Shown here piece by piece: positions 57,466 through 57,885 of a stretch of DNA of 64,000 nucleotides. A program made the position numbers and the translations under genes. The stretch lies in the NCBI RefSeq assembly GCF_006715495.1, contig NZ_VFNI01000006.1, positions 62,001 to 126,000 on the forward strand. Direction: 5' to 3'. Each line of letters starts with the position of its first letter. Positions within the stretch are counted from its first letter, which is position 1. This DNA comes from Herbaspirillum sp. SJZ106 (lineage in GTDB: Bacteria; Pseudomonadota; Gammaproteobacteria; Burkholderiales; Burkholderiaceae_D). The notes under the pieces were generated by a model. That model had not been told where the DNA came from and did not search any database. It saw nothing but the letters and a program-made list of their open reading frames with translations.

Positions 57466-57494
57466 TTTCCAAGCCGGGGCGCAGCGGCTACAAT
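57466..57494 (+). promoter_or_regulatory. Promoter of the tRNA-Arg gene
   Basis: TTTCCA (57466-57471), 17-base spacer, TACAAT (57489-57494), 11 bases before the mature tRNA 5' end. Good spacing for sigma-70. Confidence 0.7.
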
Positions 57495-57505: not shown

Positions 57506-57847
57506 GCCCCCGTAGCTCAGTGGATAGAGCGATCCCCTCCTAAAGACGATTGGGCACCGGATGCCGAAAGGCGCCGCGTGAATGGAGTCAAATTCGGTGA
57601 ACCCTGACAGCGCATCGGCCAACATGGCGTGCGGCTGCTGGCGATACCGAGCCAAGCCGGTTCCAGGCAAGCATGGGAACCGGAAGGTGTAGAGACTAGA
57701 CGGCTCCGGCCTGTCGGCGACGTTGCCTCAATGGCGATAGCCGCCCAAGGCCAAGGTATAGTCCAGACCACAAACATTCATCTGGTGGCGAAAGCCATAG
57801 TGGTACGAAGGGATAGGTCACACGTTCGATCCGTGTCGGGGGCGCCA
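57506..57847 (+). tRNA. tRNA-Arg(CCU), interrupted by a group I intron
   Basis: Exon 1 is 57506-57541 and exon 2 is 57808-57847 with CCA encoded; joined they make a normal 76-nt tRNA. Acceptor stem GCCCCCG/CGGGGGC, D stem GCTC/GAGC, anticodon stem ATCCC/GGGAT with loop CTCCTAA, T stem ACACG/CGTGT with TTCGATC loop, discriminator G. The anticodon is CCU (57539-57541), which reads AGG, a rare codon in such a GC-rich genome. The intron interrupts the loop directly after the anticodon. A terminator follows and a promoter precedes, so the gene is a single-tRNA unit. This looks like a functional gene, not a pseudogene, because every stem pairs perfectly. Confidence 0.95.
57542..57807 (+). ncRNA. 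Group I self-splicing intron in the tRNA-Arg(CCU) anticodon loop
   Basis: 266 nt, no open reading frame, ending in G (57807) as group I introns do; the upstream exon ends in U. The internal guide GGG (57552-57554) can pair with the anticodon CCU, giving the U-G pair at the splice site. P2 is CACCGGATGCC-GAAA-GGCGCCGCGTG (57555-57580) with a GAAA loop. P3 GGAG (57584-57587) pairs with CTCC (57704-57707). P7 GACTA (57694-57698) pairs with TAGTC (57759-57763) inside the conserved S element AAGGTATAGTCC (57753-57764). P9 is GGC-GAAA-GCC (57787-57796). The core strongly resembles the Azoarcus tRNA-Ile intron (subgroup IC3). Confidence 0.93.
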
Positions 57848-57854
57848 GCATAAA

Positions 57855-57885
57855 AAAAGCGCAGAAGATGTCTTCTGCGCTTTTT
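57855..57885. terminator. Rho-independent terminator, bidirectional
   Basis: AAAAGCGCAGAAGA and TCTTCTGCGCTTTT pair with a TG loop, flanked by A-run and T-run. Ends the tRNA transcript and the convergent mrcA gene. Confidence 0.92.

Follow-up and report, generated by a model that had tools for sequence, protein, structure and literature searches.

A group I intron in the tRNA-Arg(CCU) gene of a Herbaspirillum species and its scattered occurrence among close relatives

The window analyzed here, the whole stretch of 64,000 nucleotides taken from Herbaspirillum sp. SJZ106, raises the question of whether it holds a tRNA gene split by a self-splicing intron and, if so, how that intron came to be there. 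ARAGORN makes zero tRNA calls in the 64-kb window under default settings; once introns are allowed, it reports a tRNA-Arg(CCU) and places an intron of 266 nt behind position 36. The gene occupies 57506-57847 (342 nt); a group I intron of 266 nt splits it after U36, and its two exons, once joined, fold into a 76-nt cloverleaf that includes CCA. A sequence-only reading had described a tRNA-Arg(CCU) gene split in this way; the intron-allowing search bears out its coordinates and anatomy base for base, and the ARAGORN call and the joined cloverleaf agree with its naming of the tRNA. The tRNA unit comprises the following elements:

57466..57494, plus strand: promoter-like site TTTCCA-17-TACAAT of the tRNA unit (consensus match only; one found, 0.2 expected)
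57506..57541, plus strand: 5' exon of tRNA-Arg(CCU), with acceptor strand, D arm and anticodon arm to U36 (ARAGORN with introns allowed; intronless orthologues)
57542..57807, plus strand: group I intron of 266 nt, terminal G at 57807 (ARAGORN, covariation, and a match of 105.2 bits to the covariance model R1 described below)
57808..57847, plus strand: 3' exon of tRNA-Arg(CCU), with 3' strand of the anticodon stem, T arm, acceptor strand and encoded CCA
57859..57885, plus strand: terminator-like hairpin GCGCAGAAGA/TCTTCTGCGC followed by five T (read by eye)

The intron is preceded by U and has G as its last base, both group I features being read directly from the sequence, and it is inserted immediately after the CCU anticodon, as seen by ARAGORN and from empty sites in relatives. 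Intronless genes of the same genus read CCTCCT followed by AAGGG exactly at the junction; because they read straight through it, the insertion is established by comparison, and the proposed boundaries stand, with a 2-nt AA ambiguity at the junction that is resolved by the terminal-G rule alone. Since the intron contains no plus-strand orf of 80 or more amino acids, no homing endonuclease gene is seen in it; two minus-strand orfs that overlap the intron (86 and 128 amino acids) are regarded as chance. Among 13 inspected flanks of the genus the TACAAT element is conserved in all 13 and a similar terminator-like hairpin is present in 12, the locus L182 having a different one. The hairpin at 57859-57885 is absent from the output of an automatic terminator scan. 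Rfam matches to STnc40, MIR8001 and MIR8670 on this downstream hairpin are weak and far under their cut-offs, as is a match to naRNA4 on the opposite strand, and all four were rejected.

The genome (4.58 Mb in 14 contigs) has 52 sites matching the Rfam tRNA model, 50 of which are called by ARAGORN; these 50 together with the split locus make 51 tRNA genes, with one Arg(CCU) and one Arg(UCU) among them. The two uncalled sites look truncated by eye and have anticodons CCC and CGT, not CCU, and no intact intronless CCU gene pattern was found in the genome. Default ARAGORN and Rfam thus both overlook the single CCU gene detected in this genome. In the available text of the tRNAscan-SE paper, its authors state that the program is not designed to detect such introns (PMC8450103).

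Support for the intron fold comes from its relatives. The cloverleaf and helices P1-P9 were drawn on the window sequence and then scored on 30 distinct CCU-intron pre-tRNAs; standard pairs fill 97.9% of 2,239 pair cells, and 29 of the 75 pairs are compensated, that is, changed on both sides. When partners are slid by one to three columns at most 39.2% are paired, and none of 500 shuffles matches any of five measures. The percentage paired is biased towards the window sequence from which the structure was drawn, whereas the compensated changes are unbiased. The predicted fold is far beyond chance. The MFE fold alone is weak (z -2.36, with 2 of 100 shuffles folding equally well) and is unable to show the P3/P7 pseudoknot, so that the case rests on comparison. 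P1, P2, P3, P4, P5, P6/P6a, P7, P8, P9.0 and P9 can all be drawn in the intron, as follows:

57539..57554, plus strand: P1, CCU 57539-57541 with GGG 57552-57554 and AA 57542-57543 with UU 57550-57551
57555..57580, plus strand: P2 hairpin, GAAA loop at 57566-57569; in the MFE fold
57584..57587, plus strand: P3 5' strand GGAG, pairing with CUCC 57704-57707
57594..57650, plus strand: P4 (57594-57599 with 57645-57650), P5 (57603-57604 with 57640-57641) and a variable P5a hairpin
57652..57687, plus strand: P6 (57652-57653 with 57686-57687) and P6a (57657-57660 with 57680-57683)
57694..57698, plus strand: P7 5' strand GACUA of the guanosine-binding helix, pairing with UAGUC 57759-57763 across P3/P8
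57704..57707, plus strand: P3 3' strand CUCC, from comparison across introns of several tRNAs
57708..57752, plus strand: P8 with a long variable loop, 57708-57711 with 57749-57752; three of four pairs compensated
57759..57763, plus strand: P7 3' strand UAGUC, from comparison across introns of several tRNAs
57767..57804, plus strand: P9.0-like outer helix (57767-57771 with 57800-57804) and P9 (57786-57789 with 57794-57797), GAAA loop at 57790-57793

P1 appears in the MFE fold, and its CCU/GGG pairs are retained in all 30 pre-tRNAs. P2 is the weakest helix (90.9% of cells paired), with seven of its ten pairs compensated, and both L2 and L9 are GNRA loops (GAAA). The exon acceptor and anticodon stems also show compensated changes among the relatives. 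P3 and P7 are invariant within the 30-member CCU set, and their support therefore comes from more distant introns: on 16 introns, and again on 25 cores (28 picked, minus L023, L109_5953 and L130_3959 for trimming or oddity), pairing in both helices is 100%, and compensated changes are present. All four P3 pairs are compensated among introns of different tRNAs, as are three of the five P7 pairs among the 25 cores, where P3, P4, P5, P6, P6a, P7 and P8 all contain compensated pairs. Across tRNAs P3 occurs as GGAG/CUCC, GGUG/CACC, CCCG/CGGG, CUCC/GGAG and CUCG/CGAG, and P7 as GACUA/UAGUC, GACUU/AAGUC and GAGCA/UGCUC, always paired. The group I hallmarks that had been pointed out (P3, P7 and GAAA-capped P2 and P9) can thus all be drawn, P2, P3 and P7 with compensated pairs, and the view of GGAG/CUCC as a compensated change relative to GGUG/CACC holds, both versions being found paired across introns.

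The guide GGG (57552-57554) pairs with the CCU anticodon of the exon, placing a U.G pair at the 5' splice site. That this three-base guide sits on the anticodon had been claimed before, and to it we add two A-U pairs that extend P1 from the guide into the intron; UU 57550-57551 can alternatively pair with the AA that opens the 3' exon (P10). Guides were counted as strings near P1 in distinct regions with a recognizable site, pairing itself not being scored. The string GGG[CT] is present in 37 of 38 distinct CCU introns, L251 alone lacking it in the searched stretch, and GAG[CT] in none of the 38; GAG[CT] is present in 52 of 53 Leu(UAA) introns (the exception, L194, is a doubtful call), and GTG[CT] in all five Ile(CAU) introns. 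GTG[CT] is also found in 30 of the 53 Leu introns, where TGC comes after GAG. The predicted three-base guide follows the host tRNA.

One result stands on the other side. RF00028, the Rfam group I model, gives no match at gathering or permissive thresholds on the window (551 bases, permissive filters) or on its own genome, so the lack of a group I model match that the sequence-only reading had named as telling against the intron did occur. As a control, nine related intron loci were searched permissively with RF00028 at a cut-off of 50 bits. Three score above it, a tRNA-Leu intron (L018, 61.5 bits) and two tRNA-Ile introns (L028, 59.1 bits; L026, 53 bits); four fall below it (L025, 40.8; L021, 38.2; L023, 32.4; and the CCU intron L009, 25.2 bits); and two, L006 (CCU, from the genus of the window) and L016 (Ser), give no match at an E-value of 0.1. 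Because RF00028 misses or under-scores most of the related introns in the control, we do not count its silence against the intron, and the miss is mainly a gap in the model. Nawrocki et al., in the available text, prefer subtype models, finding it improbable that one alignment of the RF00028 kind would cover the diversity (PMC6125680).

With the ARAGORN call, the 75-pair structure in which 29 pairs are compensated, the compensation in P3 and P7 and the guide that tracks its host tRNA, the proposed group I intron is upheld, and from these comparisons we consider it very probable that the locus is a tRNA-Arg(CCU) gene with a self-splicing intron. The pre-tRNA would be transcribed from its own promoter, and the GGG guide would pair with the CCU anticodon so that the U.G pair falls at the 5' splice site. 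P7 would bind an exogenous guanosine, which would then attack after U36, and the freed 3'-OH would attack after the terminal G at 57807, with the UU/AA P10 pairing helping to position it; the expected products are a normal 76-nt tRNA-Arg and the 266-nt intron.

Two other fates of the RNA have to be weighed against this. The intron could have decayed and no longer splice, leaving a tRNA pseudogene, with AGG codons read by tRNA-Arg(UCU). The genome does have a tRNA-Arg(UCU) gene, six neighbouring genes use AGG for 8 of their 195 Arg codons, Rfam gives no match, and the R1 score of the window intron (105.2 bits) is the lowest among the 24 CCU introns of the genus, the rest scoring 108-122. Decay is nevertheless very unlikely: the window copy has every drawn core helix paired, relatives maintain pairing in the exon stems split by the intron, the acceptor and anticodon stems having compensated changes, and the promoter-like and terminator-like elements are conserved. 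Removal by a protein endonuclease and ligase, in the archaeal or eukaryotic fashion, has in its favour that archaeal and eukaryotic introns likewise lie next to the anticodon, at position 37/38, according to the available text of a 2014 review (PMC4033280), but an insertion of 266 nt with a covarying group I core makes it extremely improbable.

The window intron belongs to a known kind, the tRNA-Arg(CCU) introns, of which it is a further member. Group I introns of tRNA-Arg(CCU) were first found in Agrobacterium. The equivalent CCU intron of Bartonella bacilliformis (BbgpI) splices in vivo and in vitro, and tRNAscan-SE finds that tRNA gene only once the intron has been removed, both as given in the available part of the report (PMC7717549). 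More widely, tRNA group I introns are known from cyanobacteria, alpha- and betaproteobacteria in what is available of the 2014 review (PMC4033280), and tRNA-Ile2 introns from Acidovorax and Burkholderia in the accessible text of the tRNAscan-SE 2.0 paper (PMC8450103). The alphaproteobacterial CCU introns of Agrobacterium and Bartonella share with the window the same tRNA and the same CCT flank, and the guide string TTGGGC or ATTGGGC is present in eight of nine CCU introns from other classes of the phylum, whose genomes are presumably alphaproteobacteria; the host of the window, by contrast, is Herbaspirillum, a betaproteobacterium as the sequence alone had suggested.

The small tRNA-Ile introns L026 and L028, which we take to resemble the tRNA-Ile(CAU) intron of Azoarcus (the IC3 ribozyme), share with the window intron a three-nucleotide guide on the anticodon, core strings, and GAAA in L2 and L9. 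They differ in having a CAU/GUG guide pairing, P3 as GGUG/CACC and a length of 205 nt, against CCU/GGG, GGAG/CUCC and 266 nt in the window, and in being detected by Rfam (53 and 59 bits). We presume from its likeness that the window intron is also of the IC3 subgroup (small, no P5abc). The tRNA-Leu(UAA) introns of cyanobacteria and proteobacteria have the same core architecture and are inserted after U34 with guide GAG, whereas the window intron follows U36 with guide GGG. The tRNA-Leu(UAA) intron of Phormidesmis priestleyi (L054:4140-4453) has P3 and P7 strands identical to those of Herbaspirillum CCU introns.

These relationships were examined in a tree of intron cores (94 rows, 149 columns), drawn from 134 cores kept after removal of repeats and of 19 entries without a recognized core start or end; most phage Leu cores and most Herbaspirillum cores were left out. 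The Herbaspirillum introns fall with other beta/gamma CCU introns, Leu introns and one Ser intron, and across a 99/99 branch lie the Azoarcus-type Ile(CAU) introns (the Azoarcus-like L026, L028 and L239), the other-class CCU introns and most phage introns. On this branch 18 of 20 beta/gamma CCU introns are on the opposite side from the other-class CCU introns, the loci L209 and L212 (class set) being on the other side. The closeness to the Azoarcus ribozyme that had been suggested is not what the tree gives, though an AU test of CCU plus Azoarcus-type Ile introns against Leu introns does not reject that alternative (p 0.27 (0.271)). A single common CCU clade is likewise not rejected (p 0.106), though the tree separates the groups, as is a clade of the 18 beta/gamma CCU introns (p 0.215), which do not form one clade on the tree.

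The occurrence of such introns was surveyed with R1, a covariance model built from the 25 cores, with E-values that are rough. Of 34 genomes in the genus it matches 24, each of which has a CCU intron, and the window intron is the only match in its own genome. Beyond the genus, R1 matches 55 of 275 genomes of the class and 30 of 299 of the phylum; among the best matches, ARAGORN names Arg(CCU) in two of the 29 new loci from the class and in 10 of the 28 from the phylum. Searching with an exact core string of 22 bases finds 27 named genome loci, a biased sample: 24 are Arg(CCU) by ARAGORN, two are from Curvibacter, read by eye as Arg(CCU) although ARAGORN said His, and one is a cyanobacterial Leu(UAA). 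Herbaspirillum accounts for 16 of the 27 records, five of these 16 having pre-tRNAs identical to those in the genus genome set. No plasmid matches the window intron. An earlier report of the intron in Herbaspirillum was not found in the literature searched, a body mostly outside subscription papers.

R1 also has a second match in three genomes of the genus, L194 (G211), L195 (G216) and L196 (G204), one in tRNA-Leu(UAA) and the others in tRNAs doubtfully named by ARAGORN. Similar introns are seen in tRNA-Ser(UGA) at L016:1308-1613 (same family) and L207:1403 (same class), with a guide string, TCGAGC, that suits insertion after U34, as in tRNA-Leu.

Introns with the same core string are found in phage tRNA genes. 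The string occurs 75 times in 74 viral contigs (L058-L131), 65 of the 75 lying inside tRNA genes called by ARAGORN with introns; 42 of these are Leu(UAA), and the remainder are Ser, Met/Ile, Lys, Thr, Gln, Tyr and SeC per ARAGORN, some doubtful. The contig L130 has three intron-bearing tRNA calls and L109 and L119 have two each; four of ten proteins scanned in L130 and L109 match PHROGs, including a head maturation protease (L130) and a UvsX-like recombinase (L109). A 2014 review, in its available text, places all phage introns then seen in protein genes despite the many phage tRNA genes (PMC3984707).

Phage matches to the window intron itself are short, in Gordonia phage Daredevil and Agrobacterium phage Atu_ph07 (four records). 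The match in Daredevil falls within the 238-nt intron of a tRNA-Lys(UUU) gene (L265:1381-1692, by ARAGORN) about 570 bases from an integrase gene. Atu_ph07 (MF403008.1) has an unannotated tRNA-Leu(UAA) with a 278-nt intron (L263:1495-1856), the 'hypothetical protein' AUZ94936.1 being annotated over the 3' end of the gene, and in a 735-kb record of an uncultured phage (L264) a tRNA-Leu(UAA) gene is likewise split, by an intron of 205 nt. Microcoleus phage My-WqHQDG (OR578706.1) carries a tRNA-Arg(CCU) gene (L266:1311-1596) whose intron, 213 nt long, occupies the same site and shows the guide string TTGGGC; the gene is annotated as a 286-base tRNA-Arg.

How the intron came to its present host can be approached through the empty sites. 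Among the ten intronless genomes of the genus, nine match the pattern of an intact CCU gene with no mismatch, and the tenth is only 63% complete. Seven of the nine empty genes are flanked, as in the window, by the PBP1A and cytochrome genes; the other two are flanked by PhoB and ABC-F genes, as is the locus of one carrier (L171). Both flanking genes were used for trees: PBP1A with 28 genomes (21 carriers and seven empty; five of 33 genus loci without PBP1A left out) and the upstream cytochrome gene with 27 (six of 33 loci without it left out), the two empty genomes G206 and G214 of the nine being absent from both. A first flank tree was reduced from 27 to 20 rows by removal of five duplicate loci and two short matches.

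In the PBP1A tree the window's species is the sole carrier in a group of eight (support 94/97), with its sister G196 (100/99) and next relative G174 both empty, and in the cytochrome tree it again pairs with G196 (96/96). The cytochrome tree requires four changes, two of them forced by starred branches. As the species sits among intronless ones, the intron was either lost repeatedly or regained.

On the second account, the lineage of the window lost the intron together with its clade and later acquired it again, either through transfer of an allele carrying the intron or through reverse splicing into the empty gene. One loss and one gain would meet the two changes that the PBP1A tree requires, losses alone needing at least three by our count; constraining the seven empty species to a single clade is rejected for each of the two flanking genes (p 3.3e-7 and 4.1e-7, tested after the trees were seen); and split tRNA genes, including one tRNA-Arg(CCU), occur in phage genomes. 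The window intron, however, groups with that of G197, which in the PBP1A tree is a carrier branching just outside the group of eight, as descent predicts. This is not a strong join (94/78; SH-aLRT 78, bootstrap not settled), the place of G197 is unsettled in the cytochrome tree, and by plain pairwise identity G198 is first (93.5%) and G197 fifth (92.0%). The flanks within 75 bases also resemble those of the empty sisters, with no converted tract by eye. Regain is a possibility to which we give the smaller part of our belief, and we think it doubtful that an endonuclease-free intron re-entered the empty CCU gene of one species in an intronless clade with phage-borne split tRNA genes among the vehicles of its spread. 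Descent with at least three precise losses is tentatively favoured over one loss and a regain, and the intron, in which no endonuclease gene is seen, looks like a mostly vertically inherited passenger that has been lost repeatedly.

These findings make Herbaspirillum a host of a tRNA-Arg(CCU) group I intron; Curvibacter and MAG records of beta- and gammaproteobacteria have similar introns. The match of guide to anticodon across tRNAs offers a simple rule that tells which tRNAs can host such introns, and with close relatives that either have or lack the intron at one locus, it becomes possible to test directly how a group I intron free of an endonuclease is lost or regained.
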